Assembly: GCA_950295325.1 (NCBI GenBank)
Contig: OX485804.1
Coordinates: forward strand, 12,960,001 to 13,024,000
Direction of reading: 5' to 3'
Length of the DNA stretch: 64,000 nucleotides
DNA from: Polytrichum commune
Lineage: Eukaryota; Streptophyta; Polytrichopsida; Polytrichales; Polytrichaceae
The notes under the pieces were generated by a model. That model did no database searches. It was not told where the DNA came from and worked only from the letters and a program-made list of their open reading frames with translations. Position numbers and translations under genes: made by a program. This document shows, piece by piece, positions 1-30,365 of the stretch. Every line of letters starts with the position of its first letter. The stretch's first letter is position 1.

Positions 1-3000
1 TTGTCTATATTTGAGTGGTTTAATGACAAAGCTCGTAGTTCACAACAAATATCAAAAAGACATGTATTGTGATGATATTGGATTATGTGCTAAAAGTAAG
101 GAAATTGTTCTAGGTTCGGTAGTTTTCACAATCGAGAGCGTCTATGTAATTGATTGCATAAAGAGAAAAGAAGAGTCTTCACTTTGACCTCTTATAGCTT
201 TTGCATCTCAACTTTGTTTTTGATGCTTCACACAACGATCTTCATGATTCGCAATTGGCAACTAGATAAGACTATTGCCAATTCCATTTAACAACCAAAA
301 TCACACAATGGACTTGAAAATGTTTGTTATAGGAATACACTCCCACGGTGTTGATTACCTCGTTGCATTAGCCTTTCAAAGTGCAGTCAAAAACCGTGCA
401 ACTCAAAGCATTTGTATTGACATTCAACATCTTACAATTATATATACATATAACATAAACTATACATTACCCTTAAGAATTGTAGGTGTCAATAACATGT
501 CACAAACTAGTTTAGGTTCACCTACCTTCTAGGAAAGTACCTAATGTAGTTGGCTTCCTCCAAGCAAGTAAGTTAGTATATGTACCAAGATATGTTAGCC
601 AATTGACTTCCAAAGACATGATGCTTTTGGCATTTTATCCACCGTTCCACACACCTAACTTGGATTATGTACAACTACCAAATCACGCGGTAGGTGTTTA
701 GTGCCATGAAGCTTGTATGTTTGGATTTCGAAGCACCTCACAAGATTTAATGGTTGTAGTGATGATGACTTTGAGGACTAAACATTAGTAATTCCAAGCA
801 CACATGTCTTGGGCAATCAACAATGCATCATCAAGGAATTGTCTTGAGTTATTAAAAAATATGCAAATCTACGACAATGGTAAGTTTGCATGTTTCTCTT
901 AGTAACGTCTGATGATTGTCTAGGACCCATATAGATAGAAATGCCAACCTTTCATGGAGGGAAGTGTAAATGGAGAGTCACTTCCACCAGTTGGTAGTGG
1001 ATTAGGACTTGTATGTTGGTGGTGAACACGATACACTTAAATTCCTAAAACTGGAGTTTACGCAAGTTTTGGCCAGTAAATTTGTTTTGCATTGTAGATC
1101 TAACAACAAATTTTGCTATGCGTTGGTATGTGTAGGCTTTGTTGGACCATGTGGGATCGTCAATCTGGGGAGCTTCACAAAACTCTAGATCTTCGATAGC
1201 AGCAACCAATGACGGCGTGGCAATAGGGATTATGGATGTTGAGGATAAGGCTAACCAAGAATCAAAATCATGTATCTATGTTTAATCACATGCGCATTCA
1301 TTTGATCATCACAAGTTACAACGATTGAAACTAGATTGAAGGATGACTTTGGATAATCCAAGGTCATCAAGGTCGCATCATTTGTGTAGAACTAATACTT
1401 GCATGTCTTTCAATTTTCCTCGATGGTTACTTCGTTGCACCTTGCATTCATTTGTTTCTTTTTTTTCCTAGGATCACAAAGTCAAATTCTCTTGGAACTT
1501 ACCGGAGGAGGTGGAGGAGGTGAGGAGTTGTGCTTGTGTATAAAGATTTGTAATTCATTTGCTTCTCACATCTACAAAATGGACTCTTTTTAATTGTCAA
1601 GTTTTGACCCAATATAACACATATGATGCTTAGGGACCCAGGTGCAAAACTTGATTGTCCAATATCCATATAATTGGCTACATCTGTTAGGGAAAACAAT
1701 GAGGCTGTCCTAAGGAACAAGGAGGACACCGTTTATGGTAATTAGTGTCACATGTGTAATAGTGTCACTTACCCTATTTTGAGGCGTATGTTAGGTTAGA
1801 TTAATGATGAACAACTTCACCATAACTGTCATCTTGAGACATTTGGCGTTCGAGTGCGCTTACTAATATCTTGGCATGAGCATGTTCAATAATGTTGTGA
1901 GGCACATCCCCATGTTACACAATGGATACAATTTGACTAAAGTGTACACAATTGACATTTGCCATTAGTATACTCAAGAATATCTTCCTCTTGCATACTA
2001 AAATGTAAACACATGACACTTGCCATTAGTACGTTCAAAAACTATCTTCCCCTTGCATACTAAAACACGATACTATCATTTAGCACATCCCAATGTGCTA
2101 CTCTAAATGTCATAATGTAGATATTTTCTCACTTTAAGAAGTTACTTATGTTGAAGAATGGAATCAACTGGCCATTAGTGGGCATGACACTTTGAGACCT
2201 CTAGGCATCTAGCTTAAGCAACCTTCAAAAAATTGAGAAAAAAAACGTTGAGGAACACATGAATCTTGGATGTGTCCACATCATCTTGTATAATTGATAA
2301 TCATCTCACCCATCATGTAGTAGTCTATTAAGGCTAACGTAGGATACATTAAAAAGAAACCTATAGGGGACATATATTTACTGCAACCCCCATGGTAGGT
2401 GCTAGAAACAAAATACGTAAAAGTAGGATCGTTTATAATGGCCACTTTGAGCACTTCGAGGGATTCGTAACATGCATCAAGTATTTCAAACTAGAATTTA
2501 AAAACACTTTGGACTTCTTGGCCGATTCCATACAAAACACTACTCAACTCCTAGGCTGCATTTTGTGGGACCAAGTAGTGGGTGAGCATAATCCCCCTTT
2601 AATTATGGGATTTCCCATGTATGGGGAGCACTCAAGGTGTGTACTATATAGTTTTTTTTTTGACAAGCATCTGTAATTTATTAGATATCTTTAATCTCAT
2701 CCACTTTCTTTGGAGAGTGACCATCATCTAGCAACATAGTAATGTTATGTACCAAATTGTTGTTGCATGTCCACTTGAATACATCCACTATGGTGCCAAA
2801 TGTGTGCGCACATCATGTCCACGAAGTTTTAATTCATAATCACCCACATAATGGCAACAAGACGAGTATCAATAATAACACTTAATGCACAAGTATTCAC
2901 ATGTCTAAAAATAGACAATATGCTTAATTTGGAAGTCATGAAAAATCAGGAACTACCTAAATACCAATAATCATAGTTTATTTAAGAAATTTGTGAATTC

Positions 3001-3985
3001 ATACGTATAGAGGTTAATGCACTTGAGTTCATCAAAATTTCACATCATGCGATTTACATATAATCAATGCAAGTCAAGAGGCCTTTACATAGACCCCCCC
3101 CAAAGTGGACAACGTTGGTCTTTGATATTTTGTCTCTTTCAACTAATGGCTCGCTACCTTTTTTGTCCTCAGAATAAAATAATTAGTGTTCATGTTGAAA
3201 TACATAGCTTGACTTTGGAACACCGCATGGTGTTGAAATTGGGGTCATTGCATAATTAAATGCTTCTACCCTACTTATTTTGGGGGTAAACATTCATCAC
3301 ACCTACCAATGAGGGGGGGGGGGTTGAAAACATTGATTATTATGTGAAACTCAAGGATTAATCTTTATAAAATTAACATCTAAATTGGGGTCAAAGACCC
3401 TAAATTAATCCACTAAGATTAATTCTTGAAGAAATGACAATAAACTTACGAGGAGCATGTCTGTATTGCACTCGATGGTAGGTGTTGAGAAATGAATTTC
3501 AAATGTCGGAAGAAACATCCTGGTTTGGTTTCCTAACACCCAAGGTAGACATGCGTATTTAAGTTACTACAATCATTGAGACACCTACAATTCAGTGATT
3601 TGCAGTGAGATGTGCATCAAATCAAGCCAACACCACACTGCTTATCATGGCCACCAAAAACACACGTGTCTAAAAGAGAATGGACCATGTGCTCAAATTA
3701 GTTTAATCACTCTAGACTCAAAAAGTCAACATAAATTGGGGTGGGGGATGGTATGTGATTGAGATGACTTATGGGCCTTTGGAATTTTCCTATCAATCCA
3801 TGGTAGGCTCCAAATTTCTTTGCGGATTAACCAAAATTTAGAGTTTGCAAAATAAAACAATATTCCATGGGAAGCAAGGAAAAGTAACCATTCAAGACAC
3901 ACCTACCTTGTCGAGGGTGTTAATAGTAAAATAAAAAAAACTTGCCCCCCTGTAGGTTGGTTGCCAATTCATCCCAGTTTAAGCT
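1..3985. other. AT-rich intergenic DNA, no gene recognised
   Basis: No reading frame here has recognisable domains or splice structure; the longest open frames are under 100 codons and of random composition. The stretch looks like old, decayed transposon sequence. It holds a two-unit tandem repeat at 1942-2066 and short homopolymers (a G run near 3314). Confidence 0.6.
1942..2066. repeat. Two-copy tandem repeat, about 62-bp unit
   Basis: Two adjacent units share the order TTGCCATTAGTA, then TATCTTCC, then CTTGCATACTAAAA, with about 15% differences. The function is unknown; it reads as a local duplication in decayed DNA. Confidence 0.6.
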
Positions 3986-3990
3986 CATTG

Positions 3991-4220
3991 CATCGTTTAT
4001 GGTATTTGGTGTCACTTACTACTTGAAGTTACGCAATGTTACAACTTTTTACAAGAACGTAAATTTCTACCAAGTAAAATCATTAATGTCATATATACAA
4101 TACTATCCACACAAATGATTCAATCCTTATTATTAAATACACAAAAATCTATATGTGGAAAATTTATCCTTACATAATTCCAAATACAGTAGTAAGTGAC
4201 ACTGAATACCATAAACAATG
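3991..4220. mobile_element. MITE with long terminal inverted repeats (family A)
   Basis: The left end reads CATCGTTTATGGTATTTGGT and the right end is its near-perfect inverse. The inverted ends run about 32 bp and include GTGTCACTTACTAC. No coding capacity is present. Related copies lie at 14401-14620 and 17957-18180, with the shared inner motif GTTACGCAATG next to the left end. Confidence 0.75.
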
Positions 4221-4245
4221 TGAAACATACTATAAAGTCTGTAAT

Positions 4246-4585
4246 AATCAACCCCCTTAATGTCACTTCTTCTCTTATATCCCGAAATCCTAGGGAACGG
4301 ATGTTCCCAATTTAAATCTCACTCCATGTTATCACGTTTCTTTCCCATATAGCACGGGGTTTTGACAATAAAGTAACCCACCAAAGAACTCAAACCAGAA
4401 GCTGACACACACCACATTGTCATCAGTATATTTATTATCATTACTACAGTGTTGACTTTGTGTTGTTCCATAATATCACAATACACTAATTCTCTGTTAT
4501 CATGCATCCACGGTAACGCTACATACGTCTTTAATATCACGTGCGCTTTAGTTGCCACAAACGTGATGTTAAGGAGGTTTGAGTG
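4246..4585 (-). mobile_element. MITE, family E (copy 1)
   Basis: A roughly 340-bp element whose ends read AATCAACCCCCTTAATGTCA and, inverted, CAAACCTCCTTAACATCAC. Two further copies in the opposite orientation lie at 11257-11583 and 35272-35612. Shared interior words include a GGAATAACACAAA-like stretch, CAACATTG and CAATGATGACA. There is no coding capacity. Superfamily is not assigned because no clean target duplication is visible. Confidence 0.7.
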
Positions 4586-4867
4586 TGCTAGTAAGTGACA
4601 ACAAATACCATAAACAACCTAACTATTCCAAGAATCTTCAACAACAACTTGGAAGTCAATTGAAGTAAAAGTACCCAACACCGGGGCCTACAATAATAAT
4701 GAGCATTTTCACCTCCCCCTTCGGTAGTCTAGGTGGTGTGAACATATATACACCCATAGCCAATTTAGCCGCTTGGTAAAGCGTGTGCGAATGCTTGAGA
4801 CACTTGAGACCGGGAATTGACCAAGGCCCTTTGCATGTGGGTATAATTGGGTGGGATTGGTTGGGGG

Positions 4868-5010
4868 CGATGACGTGGCACTGCCGCTGCCGCCGGGAAA
4901 TTGCCGCCGCGATAGGAAGATGCGCGAGGGGGGTTCCCCAAGTGACTCAAAATATTGACGCTGACTGACCCGGGTCGCTGACGTGGTCCCGCTGGACTAT
5001 CTCTTATGTA
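4868..5010 (+). promoter_or_regulatory. Putative upstream control region of the DUF4228 gene
   Basis: Base composition shifts from AT-rich to GC-rich here. Two TGACGTGG motifs (ACGT-core, bZIP-type site) occur about 110 bp apart, near 4869 and 4979, roughly 0.7-0.85 kb upstream of the start codon. No convincing TATA box was placed, so the assignment rests on composition, motif pair and location only. Confidence 0.35.
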
Positions 5011-5710
5011 AAACGAGTTACTCAGAAGTCTCCGCGTAGTCTTTCTTCACCAACAGAATCTGAAGAATCGATGATGATGATCGCCGCGAGTATAACCCCC
5101 AAGCCGATCAAATCTTTCCAATGTGTGTTAAACTTGGCAGGATTTAAAGTTACAACATCGATTACAAAGCTCCACGGTCTTATTACAACGGGACTCATTT
5201 GTGCAAAGACACAGACAGCAACAAGGAAGCAAGCTTTGAGAAATTGACGGAAGGAAGGAAGGAAGGCAGACAGACAGGCGACTTGGGGAAGGCCCATCGG
5301 TGGTCAGAGCATTGAGCGAGTTCTGCAGGTGGAAGATGTTGAGTTTCGGGGGTCAACTTTAAAGGCCAGTTGTGAAGTTGTTGCATGCATCTTTTTGGGC
5401 AGCTCCCAAATTTAGTACATCTTGTTCTAGAGATTTGACGGTGTCGGTGCCGAGGCACCTGTGGCCTTGGGCTTTTTCTGTTTCTAATAAGCCTTACCTC
5501 CAAGTTTGTGTGAGAGAAAGAATTTGAAGAGACAAGAGGAATTCTTGTTTCAGAAATTCAGCGGAGGTTGTTGCATTAGCGGGTGGAGTGTGTCTCGGTG
5601 CTGTAAGCCTGACCGAATTTTGAAGAGACGGAGGAATTCTTGTTCGGGGAGGAATTGAGTCAAGTGGAGAGGGTTAGGGTGTGATTTTGATTTCTGGTTA
5701 GATCCAAAAA

Positions 5711-19908: not shown

Positions 19909-20282
19909 AAGCAGTGCGTGTTTGTTCATGTGGGCCCTGAGAATATAACCATGGGGATGTCCCAACCTTAGTCTTAATTTGCACCACTATCCGGGGAGAA
20001 CCGGCGGTTAGTTGCAGATGAACCGGTTGAGTTTGAGAAATCACCGGTTGAAGTTGGAGACTTCATGAGAATACCCGATCATTGTAAAGACATCCATGGA
20101 ATGTACCTCAAATGAATGAAGCAAACCCGGAAGATGTCAACATGTAACCGACAGCATTTAGAATCACTAGGATCTTGACCGACTATGCCCAAAAACTTCC
20201 CATGCATTGATCTACACTAGGTTGGGGCATCCCAAAATAGTTATATTCTCAAGGCTCACATAAACGAACACACACTGCTTAA
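19909..20282. mobile_element. MITE with 60-bp inverted ends, split by a nested hAT MITE
   Basis: The outer ends read AAGCAGTGCGTGTTTGTTCA and, inverted, AAGCAGTGTGTGTTCGTTTA. The similarity continues for about 60 bp inward (CCTGAGAATATAACCA paired with CTTGAGAATATAACTA). The 225-bp hAT-like element at 19985-20209 is inserted in the middle, so this element is the older one. Confidence 0.8.
19985..20209. mobile_element. hAT-like MITE nested in another MITE
   Basis: The 225-bp copy has GGGGAGAACCGG near the left end, CAGATGAACCGGTTGAGTTT and TGACCGACTATGCCCAAAAA. Flanks ATTTGCAC and ATCTACAC agree at 6 of 8 bases, a decayed 8-bp target duplication. Confidence 0.82.
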
Positions 20283-20299
20283 TCATGTTATTCTTAATC

Positions 20300-20959
20300 C
20301 AGAGTTCGGGAAGTTTTTGAAGCAGTAGTGGCTAATTGCCGGTAGTTGCTACGAAGGGTCGGATTTTTTCCAATTTACATCGGCAAGAGCCGGTCTTTTG
20401 TAAAATCAATCGCCCAATTGCCAATATTTTCATATTTTCATTGGCCAATATCCGATTAAATGGAATTCATATCGGCACTAATTGTTTAAAAAATGTATGA
20501 AAAGTTATTAGAAATCATTTCTTAGTACAAACTCTTGAATAAGTGAAAAGAAAGGCATGTTCAAAACTTTAAATTTGAAGAGTTAATATCCTTGGCAGGA
20601 ATTGAACCTAGCAATGCCTTCACCGCTTGAAGGCCAAGGGTCCCCCAATTCTTCATAGAAGCAATTGGATTTGGTCATGGAAAGGTTGCATAATTCAAAA
20701 AGTGTAAGGTTTAGGGTACTTCCTCAAGTGCATCATCAGATGCCCCAGACAAATAGTGCTCTGGATGCTTCCGGCTGAAATCTAGTAACTCACAAGAAGA
20801 ATCGGCTACAATTCCGGGACATTTTCTGGTCCATTGGCTAATTGCCGGAGGATTGAAGTTACAATCGGATTGCCATCCGATGGTTGGAAATTTGGACCGG
20901 CCATGAGGGGAAATCCATCAGTTGATAATAAACTAGCCGTCGGTTTTCCCCGAACATAG
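20300..20959 (+). mobile_element. Medium non-autonomous hAT-like element with 8-bp duplication
   Basis: The 660-bp element starts CAGAGTTCGGGAAGTTTTTG and ends TTTTCCCCGAACATAG, an imperfect inverted pair. Both flanks are TCTTAATC (20292-20299 and 20960-20967), an exact 8-bp target duplication. No transposase frame is present. It carries an antisense tRNA-like folded module at 20588-20639, also found in the elements at 21317-22204 and 28919-29934. Confidence 0.92.
20588..20639 (-). other. tRNA-like folded module in hAT-like element (copy 1)
   Basis: On the minus strand, an outer helix CCTTGGC/GCCAAGG encloses a hairpin GCCTTCA/TGAAGGC and an arm whose loop TTCAATT fits the tRNA T-loop consensus TTCRANY within a box-B-like GGTTCAATTCC. 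No D-arm equivalent was found. It could serve as an RNA structure or an internal RNA polymerase III element; function is unknown. Confidence 0.6.
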
Positions 20960-21687
20960 TCTTAATCACGTTATGCATGGAAGGAAAATAACCATAATAA
21001 TAGATGAAGAAACTGTAGAAGAATCAGAGATGCTCGTGTCCAGACTCGATTATAATTAGTACTCTGCATGCAATGAAGGCGATATGAGGAGTGTCCAAAA
21101 GTATGAATTCTTTTGAAGATTTTTTATTCAATGCAGCGCCTTTCACATTCATTGTTTCACAAGCATCAGCATGTGCAGCACCAAGTCTCATTCTCAAGCG
21201 CCTGTCAGTCACCAATGTCGGAGCCAATACTCCCCTTTTCTTTAGAATGCTTGGAGTTCAATAATGTTTGAAGGTCACCTATCGCCATGGCACTTATGGA
21301 CGTTGCATGTTGCAACCATAGTCCGCCAAGAGCCTAAGGCTAGTGTAAATGCAGCCTACAAAATTTGTGACTTAGCCTATAAAATTTTGAAAGTGTAGGA
21401 CAAAGAGCCTATGGACAATTTAAAAACATAGGATGTCAACCTATGTGATAAAAAACATGTAGGAAATTTTGCCTACAAAGTTTTTAAAAGAGAGGATTTT
21501 AGCCATTCATCCTTCTTCAAATTGGGAAATTAGTTGACCTAAGTACATATCTTTAGGCTAATACTCGGGGCTCTTGGGTGGCACATAGACGGATATCAAT
21601 AATAGCCCTAACTCCCTTCCCGCCAATCTTTACAAATACCATTCATCACAACTCCTCTCTCATCAGCTCCTCTCTCTCTGTGAAGCA

Positions 21688-21690
<3 letters not shown>

Positions 21691-21720
<30 letters not shown>
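21691..21720. repeat. (GT)15 microsatellite
   Basis: Uninterrupted GT dinucleotides inside the hAT-like element; a shorter interrupted GT tract lies near 21814. Confidence 0.95.
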
Positions 21721-21721
<1 letters not shown>

Positions 21722-21908
21722 GAAATTCAAGTGTCGCAGTCTCGCAGATCAAGCAACTCTCTCAATCTCTCGCGCAAGCAGCGTTGAAATTCAAGTGTCG
21801 CAGATCAAGCAACTTTGTGTGTGTATGTGTGTGAGGTCAGCGATTTGAACTCTGTGAGCGATTTGAACTCTGTCTGTGTGTGTGCAAGGTTTTTGCTGGA
21901 GTTGGTTA

Positions 21909-21965
21909 ATCCTTGGCCTTCAAACATGGTGAAGGCCTTAGCCAGGTTCAATTCCTGCCAAGGAT
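21909..21965 (+). other. tRNA-like folded module in hAT-like element (copy 2)
   Basis: The outer helix ATCCTTGGC/GCCAAGGAT is 9 bp and perfect. The inner hairpin is GCCTTCA/TGAAGGC with loop AACATGG. A T-arm-like CAGG/CCTG stem has loop TTCAATT. It is antisense to the element's CAGTGTCCG terminus, as in copies 1 and 3. Confidence 0.6.
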
Positions 21966-22354
21966 ACCACTTAGTACTCAAATTTTGAATTTAAAGCCTA
22001 CAACATTAAAAGATATGAAGGATTTTAACCCACTAAAAATTAGTTTTGAAGGCAATTGGCGGGTAACTTAAAAACTCAAAAGGTTTTTAACTTACAAAAA
22101 TTTGATATTGTAGGATGCAACCTATGCCATGAGGGAAATAGCCTATGCCCTTTTAAAGAGGTAGGCAATTAACCTCAATAACTTCAAAAACTTTTCGGAC
22201 ACTGGTTGCAACATGTTTGAGCTTTCATTCGGAAGTGATCATTGTGGTTGTGAAGGAGGAAGTGATGTGTACTTATTGGTAGACTCAATTGGTGAGATGC
22301 ACAATCCATTGAATCTTACCTTAATTATATTTTGAGGCATTTCAATAGACTAGT

Positions 22355-22504
22355 CACTACAAGCATATGAGTCTTGGGTAAATGTTTTGCGTCAATGGAA
22401 ACTTATTCTACGTCAAGTACGTAAATCTACCAGGGCGGTAGATTTGCAATGTTCTTTCACTGACATAGAATGATTACCTAAGATGCTTGTGTTGATTGTG
22501 AGTT
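22355..22504. mobile_element. Foldback MITE with CACTAC-type ends
   Basis: Left arm begins CACTACAAGCATATGAGTCT, and the right arm is the inverse (TACCTAAGATGCTTGTGTTG). The centre pairs AAATCTACC with GGTAGATTT. The CACTAC start resembles CACTA/Spm elements, but no 3-bp target duplication is preserved. It is non-coding. Confidence 0.6.
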
Positions 22505-22539
22505 TGTAGCCTCAAATACAGAAAGAAAGCTCTACGAGC

Positions 22540-22684
22540 ATACAAGTTCCGGGTAATCAACACGTATCGGTGAAAAATACATGCAAATCTACCATTGTCA
22601 TGGTAGATTTACATGTTTTCTAATGACATCAGACAAATATTCGATGATGCAAGATATTTTCCTATGATTTGTGTGCTTGTAGAG
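22540..22684. mobile_element. Foldback MITE related to the preceding one, AAG duplication
   Basis: The ends CTCTACGAGCATACAAG and, inverted, CTCTACAAGCACACAAA are paired. The centre again pairs AAATCTACCA with TGGTAGATTT. The flanks AAG on both sides form a 3-bp target duplication, as expected for CACTA-type transposition. Confidence 0.65.
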
Positions 22685-23178
22685 AAGGCTTCCGTGAATT
22701 TGTTCATCATTGAAGCCATGCTAACAAACCAAACACGGCAAGTATGACCTTTAATCCAAGAAATAATTTTCAAAAGGTGAAATGTAGCCCCCTTCATAGT
22801 CATCACTATAGGAGTCCGAGGAGTTAGACATAACCCAAGCTTTGCTAAATTAGAAAAAACTATATACTACCCCCTTGACTATAAAGAAATTAATGAACAG
22901 AATACATCAAATAGTACTAAATGCCTCCCATAACTTATCCTAAGTGAAAGAGAATTGGAGAACCAACCAACGGCCCCACTCCCTAAAACCTAAAATAAAA
23001 CCTAAAACCTCCCTCGTGGCCATGCATGTCCTCTTACTTGAACCCACCTTGAGCAAGATCACCAATGGGCTTGTATTCACATTAATGACACGTTTGCCCC
23101 CAAAGTTAACAACTACATACTTCAACATGGACATTTAATCATTAAATTTAATCTACAAACCAAAAATGCAACTCATTA

Positions 23179-23433
23179 CAGTAATCTCCCGCTTAAGTAT
23201 GCACTTTGAACCGTAGCCATTGGTGCGCACTTAGTTGATAGGTGCGTACTTTACTCATATCACTTTCTAAACCCTTTGATTCGTCAAGTGTAAAAAATTC
23301 ATGCATTTGCAACAAATGGCCTTGCATGACATGTTCAAACAATAAAGTATGAACCCTCAGTTTTGTCAAAAAAATTGTGCACTTAAGTGGGATGCGTACT
23401 TAAATGGGTGTGTACATATTCGGGAGATTACTA
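23179..23433. mobile_element. MITE with CAGTAATCTCCCG ends, TA duplication
   Basis: Left end CAGTAATCTCCCGCTTAAGT and right end CGGGAGATTACTA are inverted copies flanked by TA. Inner GCACTT/AAGTGC-type words also pair. The pattern fits Tc1/mariner (pogo-like) MITEs. There is no transposase. Confidence 0.7.
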
Positions 23434-25202
23434 TAGTTGAAGGACGCAAATTGTCACTAACTATGAACATGTCCAATGTTCATTGTCCAATGTCTTAAGA
23501 AGGCTTTGTCTGACAAAGAATGTCAAATGAGATTTGTCATTTTGTTCAATTCTATAGAAATAAGAGATTATGCTCCAACTCATGTGACCTTAATGTTGTC
23601 GTGCTCATAGTTTGCAATCACTTATCCAAATGAAATATTGAATAATTGCTTGGGTTAGATAAGGGACCATAGTGCTCAATGATTATGCGTTTAGGCGCTT
23701 CTACATTAGATGGCATTGTTATTGTGGTAGATAATGCAAACTTTTTGGATGCGAACTTTAGAAAAGGGTAGGTAAAGTCCACAACAATTCTCTCCTACAA
23801 ATTGCATGAAAAGATAAGAGTTCCAAGAAACTAAAAAAAGCCCTCAAAGATGTTCATGATGAGGTTGTTATGGAAACATCACACTCAAATGCTTCAAGTA
23901 TGTATTGTGGGCCCCAATAAAGTGTGGCTAGAATGCTACCTTTTACATTCTACCTACCTCATACTTTATATAATGACCACTTCAATGGCCGTATTCTTGT
24001 AAAGGGAATTATGCAAATAAATATGCAAATACCAAGCAAATACCTCACCAAATGTGTCACATACCAAAGCCTACCTCTCCATGTCACTCGTGATGGTCTT
24101 GGTGTTGAGTTTGTGATGCACTTATAAGTAAAGTGGCCATTTGCCTCAAATTTGATAATGTGTACATTGTACCATATAGGCCTCTCTATTCTTACAAAAT
24201 TTTGTTATTCTCCTCTCAATTTTGTCATGTGTCATTCCAACATTGGCTAAAACCCACTTAATCTCTTGTAGAAACTGCATAATGGCACTATTAAAGATAC
24301 AACACAATGCTATGACATCATCATTATAATCATTGAGCATAAGGCTTATGCCATTGTTTTCCCCATGACTAAATATATAGGGTTCATAACATTATGAAGT
24401 AATGTTGGGCAGTTCCTTGACCCATGAATGTGCAGGGAATATTTCTTAGACCAAGCATGACATATCTCTAAGATTTTTTCAATGTTTAAACCTTTATTGT
24501 TAGGTTATGTTACTCCTAATTATTTTGTTTGATTTTTTGCAAAAAAACTCAATAAAATTAAGTCTTGCCAAACTTGGTATCCTCATTATACTCGACAAGG
24601 GTTTGATCAAAATGAAAGGGGTACACATTATCAAGGTATTGTAGAGGGCTCTCTATTCCGACACAAAATAACTAGTTTCTTCTTGACTGTCGTCACATGT
24701 CATGCTCACATTCGTTAAGACCCACTTGTACCCCACGTGGAAATTACATTATGGGATAGGTAAAGATGAAATAGAGAGTCTTCTACAATTCTTTGTAGAA
24801 GCAAGGGGTGTCACAACCCCCCCCCCCCTCCACCCCACACCACAATAACATTCATAATTGGCGATGCAATGCATTCAACGACCAAAAACAAAAACGAAGA
24901 AGAAGAAGAAGAAGAAGAAGAAGAAGAAGAAGAAGAAGAAGAATTTTAGCATTTTTAGCTTCAATGTGGCGCAAATTGATTGTTTTAACAAATAGGAGTT
25001 CATTTTTTCTACAACTTGGATTTCAGTTGAGAATTATTTTGACTCTATCTCTTGGGTTCTTGTTGATGGACGCATGTCCTCGTGGAACATTACGTCTCAA
25101 TACAATAGACATAGCAATTTCAAGCTATGTTTAGCTATCATGTTTCTCTCTTCAATGACACCTGGATGATGGATCCTCCTCTCTTGCATAATTGAGATTC
25201 AT
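23434..25202. other. Intergenic DNA
   Basis: No gene recognised. Contains a poly-C run near 24816-24829 and a (GAA)n tract at 24896-24943; the latter creates an Arg-run open frame that is not a gene. Confidence 0.5.
24896..24943 (+). repeat. (GAA)16 microsatellite
   Basis: About 16 uninterrupted GAA units. Confidence 0.95.
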
Positions 25203-25375
25203 TGTATTAATTTTTTTTTTGAAATACATGAGGTGTTTGACCACCTGGCTAGTTTTCGTCAAGTAGAGAGACGATTTTTAGATCCGGGAATCAAATTACT
25301 AACCACTCCATTCGGTTTGGGTGCCTTTGCATTGTCATCCAATAGTTTAGGATCAACTTGGACCCAAGCACAATT
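25203..25375 (-). mobile_element. tRNA-derived SINE-like copy 1
   Basis: On the minus strand it reads a decayed box-B-like AATTTGATTCCCGG, then CTCTCTACTTGACG, CCAGGTGGTCAAAC, and ends in a poly-A tract (T run at 25212-25221 on plus). The same order occurs at 30366-30562. The internal box B plus a 3' A-tail fits a SINE. Both ends are eroded. Confidence 0.6.
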
Positions 25376-26476
25376 GAGATTCAAACTACACGTTTTTAAG
25401 ATCCCAACACTTGCGTATCTTTGACTCTCCAAGAAACTTACAAGTCCATCAAGTTGAGGGATGTTATGGAATCCTATTTGTTTTTGTATTAAGAGAAAGT
25501 GAAGCAACTTGAAAATTGGTGGTGTGATGAAGAGAATACCCAAAAATAGGATCTTGGTTTCATCCATGCACATGCACTAGTTGGAAGCACTTGCAACCTA
25601 ACTTATAAGGAAGAAGGAAGTCATCACTTCCAGTTTAACAACAAATTTTAATTTAAAAAATCAAATAACATACAACTAATTAAGCATGTGTGCACTCAAA
25701 AGTCAAGGGTGGCTTTGTACTTATGTACAACTTGGTAGAATAACCGGAATACCACACATCTATAAACTGGGAGATCTACTTATAGTCAAAGAATAACTAA
25801 TTTGGAAGGCTTCTGTGTTAAAAAGATCATAGAAATGCGTCATGTGGTCACATGATCTTTCAAAATTTGAATTTCATTGTACACATGAAGAAGAGGAGCA
25901 AGGTTATCAAATATGCTTTCTCTTTCTTTACATTTTAGTTTGCAACTAGGATTGTTCAAATTTAGAGACCGCGCAATCATGCATCTTTGTGATTGCTCTA
26001 CAAGACCCTCACAATTTGCATGCCCATAGATTTAACAACTCATAACATTGTATACACGTTTTTTCACAATCTCAAAAAAGAAAAAAAGAATGCATTAACA
26101 ATAGTCAATAGAAATAGATGTAGACATGTACAAAGTACACCCATTTTCGTCCTTAGCCTTGTATCACCTTGCTCCCTGAGGCCGGGGATTCCTGGCACTC
26201 ATGTATTAATTATCATTAGTGAGAGTTCATTCATCTTTGCGAATGAGATGAACCACTTTAGATACTTCCATACGTCGTGGGTTCCTTGTCTCAAGGGTTT
26301 CAAAAATACCAAGTCTTAGTAGTTTTAAAAATCCTAGTCTAATCTAATACTTAAGGCACCAATATAAAGGGGTATAGACATTTAAAAAAAAATGCCTCGT
26401 ATAGAAGCAAGTGGGGGCATCTTGTGTTGCCAACCTATCACTACTAATCCGGTTGTTTTAAAGAAAAATTAACATG
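25376..26476. other. Intergenic DNA
   Basis: No gene recognised. A GC-rich 40-bp block near 26169-26210 recurs inverted at 27588-27632. Confidence 0.45.
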
Positions 26477-26858
26477 GGTGGACGTTAAATACCCCCTCAC
26501 GAACTTTCAAAGGTATCAAATCCGGGTTGGGGCAACCTTCTACAGAAATTTTCTAAACCCGACTGAAAACTGTTGTCCGCCTTGCCCAACTTCGAAAAAA
26601 CCATTGCCCTTGCATTCTTGAAGGTTGCTTGACTACAAATCCCATATTGAGTGCACTTCACCTTCAAGGTCTAAAATTCAATATATATGTGCACTTCTAA
26701 TTAGTAAATAAGCAATTGATTGGGATTTCATTCCGGAAGTGAAACCATCAATGAAGCACGTAATTAACTTGGAGGTCAAAAACATTACAAACTCCTCACT
26801 AACATTGAGGTTATAATTTTGTGACTTATCATTTAAAATTATCTTTGTCATTCTAATG
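26477..26858 (+). mobile_element. Single-arm relative of the large palindrome
   Basis: About 380 bp follow the left arm of 15901-17053 in order: GGACGTTAAAT, CTTGCATTCTTGAAGG, TTGACTACAAATCCCATATT, GTGCACTTCACCTTCAAGGT, GATTTCATTCCGGAAG and TAATTAACTTGGAGGTCAAA. It stops before the AT-rich centre. It is a half element or a separate solo-arm insertion. Confidence 0.85.
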
Positions 26859-28918
26859 ATAGATTAGTGCAAGTGTTCATAAGATGACCAAAATGAAACA
26901 ATGAAGATAGAATATAAAACATAAAACATAAAATTATATAAATATCAATTTTATTTTCTAGATAATATAATATAAGGTATAAATAAATGACATGTTATTT
27001 GGAATTAGACTTGTGGGACAACGTTACGGATGGGGTATACTTAGAAAATCATAAGTTTCTGACTATAGCCTATCTGAATTATTGTAATAATTTATCCTCA
27101 TCACATATTGTATTATCTTTAAAATCACATGGTGTATATTATTTATTTTAAAATAATAATAATAATAATAATAATGAATTTATTTTTTTAGTTCACCAAT
27201 TTATCATAAGGTGATATATATTATTTTGACATATTACAAATGTTTGAGCAATCACACCCGTGCAAAATAAATGAATTATGAACCAAAAAAAATGCCTATG
27301 ACAACACGTCATAATTATATATTGCACATGTTGATATCTTGCGATATATATCAAAATAATCATGTGGAATTCAAAGCCACATCATGGCCTTGGAAACAAC
27401 TCATGGGAGGTTAGAAAATAGGCTTAGAGCATCCAAGGCCACATCATTGCCCCTTGCCAACTAATTAATATTTATAAAATAACTATGATGGAGAAAATAG
27501 GTCTTACATGCCAACTCGGAGGTGTTTTACTAAAGTAAGCTCCATCCGAGCTTCTTGATGGACTCATCCGATTTTCGTTACCGGATGAATTTATGTGAGT
27601 GCCACGAATCCCCGGCCGCTCCCGGAGGGAAGGGAAAGGACCATATTCCATCAAATAGAAAACAAAATCCTTGAAGTACAGCCACACTTCATAGAAGGTC
27701 GCTAATGTAGAAGACCCTATTGCACACTTGGCTTCAACACGTACACCTAATTTTGACCCCAACACGGACTAAGGCCATGTGCTCCAAAATGCATCTATCT
27801 ATTTGTTTGTTTGTCTGTCTACAAGGATGTGAGGCCCATGCTATGGGTAGTTGAAGTGGGTGTTCAACGAACTGATCCGTGGTAGTGGTGAGGTAGGTAC
27901 TGGGTGTTTACTACAACTGATGGGACAATGACATGCGATCCTAAATGAACGTAGTGATGAAAACAAGATATTGTCATCTATTATAGATGACAATGTGCCT
28001 CATGATACCTGATAAAAAAAAAAAACCACTTGATCAAAATCACTTGGCATGACCACTATGTTTGGCAAGGCCCTTTTCAGAAGGCCTTTTGGGAGGTAAG
28101 GGTTGGCATGTGCCGACTGTGTCTGTAGGTCCGTAGAGCCTTGGTCCCTGGCAAACGTATTCCTTTGTTAGAGTTGGACACCTTATGTATATGAACTTCC
28201 TGCCATTAAATCCCACAGGATATATTCATCAATCTCCACCAATGAAATGATTCTACATCCAAGTATTGAATGAAGCCCTTGGAGAGAACCATTATATAAA
28301 TACATACCAACATGTTAAGGCAGGCTCTTATTTGCATATTCTCCCCTATCCTTACTCTATTGTGTAAAAGACATGGGGCCTATTCATTTTTGTTATTGGT
28401 TAGCGCCTCACCACGCGTATTTATCCACCCATTTTTAGGAAGGTTAATACGCAACATAATCGCCTGCCAAATGTTGCAATGGACTTTGGATCGTTACATC
28501 TAGTGAGACCCTTGCCCTTGGGCCTTTAGAAGTTTTTGTGGCCCACTTTTCCTTGGGGTGAGCCCTTGTTTTTATAGAAAACCCAAGGGGCTCAAGCCTC
28601 GCCTACTACAAAACATCATGTCACATATATTGCAGTGTTAGCCATGGACTCCTTACACGTTGTAATTGGCCATTGTGCATCACAACAAACCCCATGTAAG
28701 CTCTTGTGAATCGTTGATCTTGTGTTTGGATTGCATGGCTTTAAATCTACGGTGGACATTACGCATGATAAGGTCCTCGGATCACAACCTTCGATGAATA
28801 CAAACCAACCCTTGGACGGGCCATAAATCTCGGAGAGTCCATGTCCCTAGGGCTTTATGTATTACTAAACCCCCCCCCCCCACCATTTTCCACATAGTGT
28901 AATTCGTGGGCTTGTTAC
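26859..28918. other. AT-rich intergenic DNA
   Basis: No gene recognised. Contains an (AAT)n tract at about 27154-27175 and a poly-C run near 28870. A 97-codon minus-strand frame (27472-27765) has no domain. Confidence 0.5.
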
Positions 28919-29934
28919 CAGGGTTCGGGAGATTTTGGAGCTCAACCAGCTAAAATCCGTCCCTTCATAATTTCTACCGGTTTTTTGAAGATTCGATCGG
29001 CTGCAAACTTGTTGTCATTAATTTGGATCGGCCAATATCCTATAATTTCTTTCAAGTGCCGGTTAATTTCCGCTTCATTGTAATGACAACCGGCCAAAAA
29101 CTCGGGCATTGATAAGTAAGTTGGTTTTCCAATTATATCTACAAACAACATACACCATTCAACAACAATGTCCAAAGAACATATCAGCATACAACAATAG
29201 TATGTAATGATATCAACATCCAACAAGAATGATCAATAATTTATCCGTAGCAAGAGTTGAACCTAAATTAAGCCATCAATTGGTTGATGGCCATGGATAA
29301 ACTCTTCTATCATACCTAGGTCTTAAAACCTCATATTAGATTTGAGGCCACAACATGATAAAAGAGTAACCTAACATACCATACTATATACAAAAATGAA
29401 ATTCACCAACTGTTAAAGTCAAAATCAACAATATCATCTTCACCTTCAAGAGGAAAACGCCCTGAAAGGTATCTTTGTGGATGTGAAAACAACCATCTAA
29501 ACTTTGTAGAGTTCCTTCATTAAGCTATGGCTTCCATTAGTACATTATCAAGATCACCACAAAGATCTTCCATAGACACACTCATAATACATTCTAAATG
29601 CTAGCCATCAACAATGAACTGCAATAATGAAGCAAAAGCATTGTTAAGTTTTATGTGACCTACACGGCGGAGAACCTCCCTCATTCAATATTTGCCCATA
29701 CCCTCGGGAGATCAGCCAATATCCGCTTATACCCTCTGGAGACCCAACTCATTTCCGCCATTTTCTGAGCTTGAGGGGTTAAATTTCCTACATTATCTCA
29801 TATTGGTCGGTTGATTTCCTATACTCTTCCATATTTAACTCGGTTATACGGCCGAAATCTTCCAAAAAAAATCGGTAATTTTGCAATTTCACTCGGCTAA
29901 CTTACAACTAGCTGCCGGATCTCCCCGATCATTG
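28919..29934 (+). mobile_element. Non-autonomous hAT-like element, 1016 bp
   Basis: Starts CAGGGTTCGGGAGATTTTGG and ends ATCTCCCCGATCATTG. Flanked by exact 8-bp copies CTTGTTAC at 28911-28918 and 29935-29942. Multiple CGGCC/CCGGT motifs occur near both ends, as in hAT subterminal regions. No transposase frame survives. It contains a tRNA-like module at 29241-29300 placed and oriented as in the elements at 20300 and 21317. The right terminus matches the 225-bp MITEs (TCTCCCCGATCATTG), linking the two size classes. Confidence 0.93.
29241..29300 (-). other. tRNA-like folded module in hAT-like element (copy 3)
   Basis: On the minus strand the outer helix TTATCCATGGC/GCTACGGATAA pairs at 10 of 11 positions including one G-U. 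The inner hairpin is GCCATCA/TGATGGC. The T-loop-like TTCAACT again fits TTCRANY. Both helices differ in sequence from copies 1 and 2 yet still pair. Confidence 0.6.
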
Positions 29935-29942
29935 CTTGTTAC

Positions 29943-30365
29943 TATCTATGAACGCATGCATGCATGGGAAACCGAAAGAACAGTCAAAGACTATAAGATG
30001 CCCATTGTAGGCGCTTATTGCTCGATATATAATACGTACCCTAGCCACATGTGGGTGCGCATATATTATTAGAACCATCCCTCGGGCTCCGCTCTTGGGG
30101 GATGGCCACTATATGCGGAATTCCCTGGGAATCGGGCCTTATCTAACACCATAACTAATCATTCATCCACGAGAAGAAAGGATATCGAAACCCGTCACAA
30201 TTTTACATCCACATAAGTGCCACATCACCCACAATTCCTAAACTCCGTCCATGAGTTGATCGGGCTATGATTGATACTCAACTCACGTAGGAGGATGACA
30301 ACTTACCCTCCCTCCCCCCTTCCCTGCGCCAGTTAACTAGTCCTTGTGTCGTGTGGTCATTACCA
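29943..30365. other. Intergenic DNA
   Basis: Nothing recognised apart from flanking elements. Confidence 0.45.

Follow-up and report, generated by a model that had tools for sequence, protein, structure and literature searches.

Transfer RNA (tRNA)-like folds embedded in other transcripts are known from several systems. The mascRNA and menRNA of the MALAT1 and MEN-beta transcripts are 57-58 nt folds within a longer RNA, in which the acceptor and the T-arm form a stack, two D-loop guanines touch the T loop, and processing is by RNase P and RNase Z (as reported in PMC11693755). The plant mitochondrial tRNA-like structures of nad6 and orf291 also lie inside another transcript and, according to PMC5039416, are read by the protein-only RNase P PRORP1. 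Plant tRNA-mRNA dicistrons and tRNA-like structure (TLS) motifs, as described in PMC8166872, link an mRNA to a tRNA or a tRNA-like RNA, in most cases no more than 200 bp away; the 3' tRNA-like structures of plant viruses are tRNA mimics in a non-tRNA transcript, and RNase P is described as able to cleave such structures (PMC7881203). Short interspersed nuclear elements (SINEs) derived from tRNA carry a tRNA-like piece within a mobile element. Here we describe a fold of this general kind from Polytrichum commune. The window, a stretch of 64,000 nucleotides (assembly GCA_950295325.1, contig OX485804.1, positions 12,960,001 to 13,024,000), contains three copies of a short module. We identify it as a structured RNA element that the transposase mRNA carries in its 3' untranslated region (UTR) in one clade of hAT transposons of the zf-C17orf113 type.

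The three modules of the window reside in three small non-autonomous hAT elements of families A, B and C (f1, f2 and f3). Element 1 (family A, 660 bp, 20300-20959) is on the minus strand in the sense of the gene, with its 3' end at 20300, and is flanked exactly by the target site duplication (TSD) TCTTAATC at 20292-20299 and 20960-20967. Element 2 (family B, 888 bp, 21317-22204) is on the plus strand with its 3' end at 22204 and has the TSD GTTGCAAC. Element 3 (family C, 1016 bp, 28919-29934) is on the minus strand with its 3' end at 28919, and CTTGTTAC flanks it exactly at 28911-28918 and 29935-29942. Both hallmarks of hAT elements are present, the 8-bp TSD and short inverted ends that match imperfectly (8-10 of 14 end positions agree), one of them of the CAG(A/G/T)G type, and the sequence bears out an earlier note on this DNA that had recognized three hAT elements with exact 8-bp duplications at these places. 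Further genome copies of family A have identical ends, each with a different exact TSD, and the family C copies L029 and L030 elsewhere also have an exact TSD (L-numbers designate loci fetched from the genome, which was searched as 64 contigs totalling 408 Mb, with seven of 42-78 Mb). In family B, the copies L023, L025 and L026 lie on different chromosomes and share the identical TSD GTGGTAAC; they may therefore have moved within a larger repeat that carried them along. A (GT)n run (window 21690-21721) and CT-rich tracts fill the left part of the family B element, a stretch whose length and sequence vary among the copies.

A covariance model built from 12 genome copies outside the window, some of them identical or nearly identical to the window copies and hence not independent of them, finds three strong modules in the 64 kb, at 52.7-74.7 bits and E 3e-12 or better. 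Module 1 (20588-20641, minus strand, 74.7 bits) has its acceptor strand 20634-20641 paired with 20588-20595, a D-arm-like hairpin and a T-arm with the loop UUCAAUU. Module 2 (21909-21965, plus strand, 66.7 bits) is followed by ACCA, and the same place gives a weak reverse-strand echo of 17.1 bits. Module 3 (29243-29298, minus strand, 52.7 bits) has a changed inner helix (CCATCA/TGATGG), the paired T-A to A-T swap that had been noticed earlier. Its window copy contains an A-C mismatch in the outer helix, where the full-length relatives L106, L107 and L124 are paired. A 19-base piece of the module, with up to 3 mismatches, has 3 matches in the window against a mean of 0.04 in shuffled sequence. 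The module positions given in the earlier note were right to within 2 nt, and its distance of 240-320 bp from the same terminus agrees with the 239-324 bp found here from the CAG(A/G/T)G end. The orientation has to be reversed: the CAG(A/G/T)G end marks the 3' end of the transposase gene, so the module, which had been called antisense to this terminus, is sense to the gene. A transposase C-terminus remnant is found in element 1 at 20711-20791 (minus strand; the family consensus translation ends in RKHPERYLSGASDDALEEVP-stop and the window copy reads HPEHYLSG) and in element 3 at 29403-29516 (minus strand; consensus translation RNSTKFRWLFSHPQRYLSGRF...-stop, near the end of the 755-codon frame of L166, described below). 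No coding remnant was seen in element 2 (21317-22204). Most simply, the small elements of the window are derivatives of larger parents, from which they inherited the module.

Nine families (A-I) are distinguished, and eight of them follow one plan: an acceptor of 8 pairs, a hairpin of 5-6 pairs with GG in its loop, a linker of 6-7 nt, a T-stem of 4 pairs with the loop UUCAANU, and the acceptor strand again. The T-arm adjoins the acceptor without a gap, resulting in a 12-pair stack, and families A and H have one acceptor mismatch each. Loop GG is present in 10 of 10 rows when family I is excluded, and in one of the three family I copies. The inner hairpin thus looks like a D-arm, an arm that the earlier note had not recognized, and the arm that is missing is the anticodon arm: its place is taken by a linker of 6-9 nt, in which a small hairpin of 2-3 pairs is possible in some families. 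A linker mini-arm GGC-NNN-GCC in the lowest-energy folds of families D, E and F was considered as a vestigial anticodon arm and rejected, because families C and G lack it. Acceptor, D-arm, T-arm, 12-pair stack and D-loop GG are otherwise those of a tRNA; the stack consists of 8 and 4 pairs here and of 7 and 5 in tRNA. GG and UUCAA are the loop sequences that make the elbow-forming contacts, in mascRNA too (PMC11693755). The module is read as an imitation of the tRNA elbow without the anticodon arm, and this structure is well supported. Inspection by eye shows A immediately 5' of the module in seven of the nine families (C in family E, G in family A) and A immediately 3' of it in eight (G in family G); in none of the nine do these two flanking bases form a standard pair. 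One family I copy (L117:815-885) has an internal near-duplication in the T-arm, making its module 71 nt long.

The pairing was examined in a structure-blind alignment of 37 rows, whose inner helix is out of register for families A, C and I. This alignment derives from 45 distinct rows fitted to the covariance model, leaving out both matches of L134, L103 (deletion), L117 (insertion), L019, identical copies and the non-autonomous f2/f3 rows L006, L023, L024, L027, L032 and L038 (the f3 rows include the A-C mismatch); L080 was added. Paired bases occupy 92.7% of its 629 cells, which are not independent events because the rows are related, compared with 39.0-56.4% in slid versions. Eight of 17 pairs have changed on both sides, one of the eight resting on a single row, and such changes are present in all three helices. 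Thus acceptor pair 4 is C-G or U-A, pair 5 is U-A, A-U or C-G, and pair 7 is G-C, G-U or A-U; D pair 3 is U-A, A-U or C-G, and T pair 1 is C-G, U-G or A-U. Families D (with F) and I (with C), both with A-U at acceptor pair 7, are placed apart in the tree with moderate support. None of 500 shuffles reached the number of paired cells, that of cells with both sides changed, or the covariation score. The model-fitted alignment gives 90.8% paired and 8 of 18 pairs changed on both sides; it favors the structure by construction, and the structure-blind alignment is relied on instead. From the latter, RNAalifold recovers the same three arms with a total of 12 pairs, the inner arm being shifted by one column. 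The covariation supports selection on the shape of the RNA, as the earlier note had suspected, and does so in both alignments and with RNAalifold.

Conservation between families is largely confined to the module. It aligns between the nine families at a mean z of 15.9, with all 36 family pairs above 3. The 60 nt upstream give a mean z of 2.3, and 9 of the 36 pairs exceed 3, most of them between D, E, F and H. The first 60 nt downstream give 0.85, with 3 of 36 exceeding 3, and in the next 60 nt one pair of 36 does so. Identity between families is 63-92% within the module, while the flanking UTR has lost most of its similarity. The consensus sequences of families A, B and C have little in common except for their ends and the module.

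The module is on the sense strand in the transposase 3' UTR, a position assigned because it is found behind the transposase stop across families, 59 nt (L108) to 278 nt (L117) past the stop where the stop can be read. Remnants of one C-terminal peptide (HPERYLSG, HPQRYLSG and NPSSYLNS in families A, C and D) stand 5' of the module, and the stop codon precedes it; a Pfam search with these short C-terminal remnants gave no match. The longer copies encode zf-C17orf113 and Dimer_Tnp_hAT domains over the cut-off and DUF4371 below it; in L105, PF25431 scores 56.6 bits and PF05699 32.0 bits, both over the cut-off, and PF14291 15.9 bits, below its cut-off of 32.1. L166 is a 4915-bp element (182-5096) flanked on both sides by GTTTATAG; its open frame spans 755 codons, counted from stop to stop, and the module follows 106 nt past the stop. 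Exact 8-bp duplications at both ends are also present in L167, L103 and L104; none was found on examination of L105 and L168. L103, an otherwise full-length family D element with an exact duplication, has lost 16 nt inside its module between two GGT repeats (L103:4127-4164). Among other hAT copies, those at C7:27950642, C5:38737725, C4:5520394 and C6:18872690 have open frames of 1084 codons and were perhaps recently active.

The module was sought with the covariance model in loci obtained through peptide, protein-domain or terminus searches; its 19-base piece GGTTCAANTCNTGCCAAGG occurs 779 times in the genome, and the reversed control 0 times. Loci L063-L102, fetched via the family D peptide, contain the module in 37 of 40 cases (not in L075, L093 and L099), in most of them about 70 nt past the stop; they come from the divergent part of 150 places listed for this peptide and thus are relatives of a family known to bear the module. 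A search for the N-terminal zinc finger PF25431 gave 140 places, of which 60 were sampled with a stretch at a fixed distance behind the match, so that absence there is no proof, and the module is present in 33 of the 60 (10 of 20 and 23 of 40). These loci were picked by hand, the first 20 for long or unusual frames and the other 40 from the remainder, most places near family D and E C-termini being omitted. The sampling was blind to module positions except for L129, whose window was 200 bases longer with a module position near; L131 and L153 also lie near listed modules and had the standard window. One of the 60, L134, has two weaker, broken module matches. In 12 control loci of the general hAT domain PF05699 the best covariance score is 12.5 bits; they served as controls because the PF05699 matches listed for the genome score at least 42 bits, and the elements' own domain scores 31-32 bits.

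Where the C-terminal domain can be read, the presence of the module follows the type of transposase, with 19 of 19 loci of one type having it and 0 of 9 of the other; the domain is unreadable in 32 of the 60 loci (14 with and 18 without the module), and seven of the 19 were read from 17-23 residues. In a tree of 23 C-terminal domains a single branch with a support of 100/100 separates the 15 module rows from the 8 others. Six module-bearing transposases that were compared are 47-75% identical. The earlier description of the module as a feature of these hAT elements is too narrow, because it is to the transposase gene, in its 3' UTR, that the module belongs.

The likeness to tRNA has also been examined with the Rfam tRNA model, which is independent of these elements. 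In three of eight loci, in at least one search, it covers the module from end to end, placing acceptor, D-arm and T-arm and deleting the anticodon arm, always below the cut-off of 29. The scores are 16.1 bits (E 0.28) at L137 194-248 and 17.8 bits (E 0.096) at L108 620-677, both in close-up searches, and 18.5 bits (E 7.7) at L106 674-730 in a pooled search of the eight loci. In window positions 20000-30100 an Rfam search showed no tRNA up to E 5. The placement is a lead, exact in its position, and not a significant match. The suggestion of a tRNA-like head in the earlier note is thus upheld by the plan of the arms and weakly by these placements.

It may well be, with the balance of probability close to even, that the fold is read by the host's protein-only RNase P and by RNase Z, trimming or restraining the transposase mRNA. 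Once transcribed, the fold would be bound by host tRNA-processing enzymes, most likely by nuclear PRORP at the 5' edge and by RNase Z at the other border, past the unpaired base next to the acceptor. Such processing would strip the poly(A) tail from the mRNA a short way past the stop codon, leaving a short tail-less message, and the level of transposase would probably be kept low. For PRORP, the anticodon domain is reported to be dispensable and the D and T domains to matter, and an A before the cut doubles efficiency (PMC5039416); cleavage by AtPRORP1 is reported in PMC4975455 to depend on the T-loop as well as on whether base 73 pairs with the base preceding the cut. Three loci in the genome have PRORP exon matches over the cut-off. 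More tentatively, we propose that an anticodon-less tRNA mimic has evolved in the transposase message of one clade of DNA transposons, and that these elements thereby have their own mRNA cut by host tRNA enzymes, as a built-in brake or to make a tail-less 3' end, tying transposition to tRNA biology.

Several observations weigh against this processing. Family I, represented by three decayed copies, fits the plan more poorly, and its linker measures 9 nt. The folding energies (z of -0.3 to -2.6) are weak evidence, and in families A and H the fold of lowest energy is not the proposed one; in D, E and F it has a small hairpin in addition. In the shuffle test, the number of pairs changed on both sides was reached by 3 of 500 shuffles and the number of pair types by 126 of 500, which is less striking, and the family-level wobble counts of 6 G-U and 4 A-C are no proof of strand. 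The Rfam model RF00005 (16.1-18.5 bits against 29) found the module in one of eight loci in the pooled search and in two of four close-ups (none in L095, and tRNA-Sec at 11.2 bits instead in L106); unrelated Rfam families score similarly at module places, and ARAGORN finds no tRNA in the window. In family B the acceptor is followed by ACCA. ACCA after the acceptor can inhibit RNase Z. The account of AtPRORP1 in PMC4975455 credits the D-loop, variable loop and anticodon arm together with tight binding. Moreover, other factors bind tRNA-like folds.

The last point leads to the main rival, which we consider unlikely: that the fold is bound and not cut, serving as a handle for a tRNA-binding factor (in export, translation or methylation) or for phloem mobility of the transposase mRNA. 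The same structural evidence applies to it, and an mRNA that keeps its tail could yield more transposase. In Arabidopsis and tobacco, tRNA-like structures co-transcribed with mRNAs are reported to act as mobility signals (PMC8166872). Processing is preferred to such a handle because what has been kept, namely the elbow loops, the 12-pair stack and unpaired bases on both sides, is what RNase P and RNase Z reportedly read (PMC11693755, PMC5039416), although other binders could read it as well.

It is improbable that the module is a DNA-level structure or a transposase-binding site needed in cis for transposition. That three non-autonomous families have retained it, at 239-324 bp from their 3' end, would agree with this, as would its presence in 13 of 17 loci fetched by the f1, f2 or f3 3' terminus (5 of 5, 1 of 4 and 7 of 8, respectively; the f2 and f3 loci were chosen among places that were not among the module matches listed). 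The family B 3' terminus, however, occurs without the module in L169, L170 and L172, a sister type of transposase lacks the module, and UUCAANU is an RNA loop motif. L169 (C6:5.85 Mb) and L170 (C6:5.04 Mb) have the family B end and a C-terminal remnant, and a shared deletion has removed the module with some flank on both sides, leaving the 3' region beyond intact; the two make a natural pair without the module for comparison. L172 has other sequence at the place of the module, and of L180, by eye, just the f3 terminus is left. The two copies with one deletion suggest that the elements can multiply without the module. Because related copies lack it, a role in the message is favored over a strict requirement at the DNA level for moving.

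The probability is lower still that the module is an internal RNA polymerase III (Pol III) promoter, as the earlier note had considered, with A and B boxes driving a small RNA from each element. A B-box, GGTTCAANTCC, is indeed found in families A-H, and the D-arm-like part contains an A-box-like T(A/G)GC...GG, but the two lie just 14-16 nt apart. The A and B boxes of tRNA genes are more than 30 nt apart. Neither the spacing of a type 2 promoter nor its terminator is seen, since no T-run within 30 nt is common to the families, though F and G have TTTT, and a promoter leaves the compensatory change in the acceptor helix unexplained.

Least probable of all is a fossil, a piece of tRNA or SINE captured once and inherited without function, for although the sequence is tRNA-like, the module rows stand on one side of one tree branch and capture of host DNA is frequent in transposable elements, both-side changes are spread over all three helices, and identity and pairing persist in the module where similarity of the flanks between families is mostly gone.

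Searches of the open-access literature (most subscription papers lay outside their scope) found no covarying RNA structure and no tRNA mimic in cut-and-paste DNA transposons, and we know of none. Processing of the module by tRNA enzymes, if true, would be a new kind of transposon self-regulation. The module would then be a natural anticodon-less substrate for testing what plant RNase P and RNase Z read, and its natural variants a rich set for a mutational map. The findings suggest that the elements use or provoke the host tRNA machinery.

Such pieces resemble decayed tRNAs or SINEs, which calls for caution in annotation. Unlike in a tRNA-derived SINE, no SINE body or tail is seen here; the module stands by itself, at a regular position past the stop codon, similarity between families falls at its borders, and it is part of the 3' UTR of a cut-and-paste element. 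Plant viral tRNA-like structures belong to viral RNA and stand at its very 3' terminus, whereas the module is internal, with 239-367 nt of the element after it. Dicistrons involve tRNA genes, whereas the module is a diverged fold that lacks the anticodon arm. The nad6 and orf291 structures are organellar, and the module is found in nuclear DNA transposons. Finally, mascRNA and menRNA keep an anticodon-like stem, have a reduced D-arm and are embedded in long noncoding RNAs; the module has dispensed with the anticodon arm, has a long D-arm-like hairpin and is carried by the transcript of a transposase.

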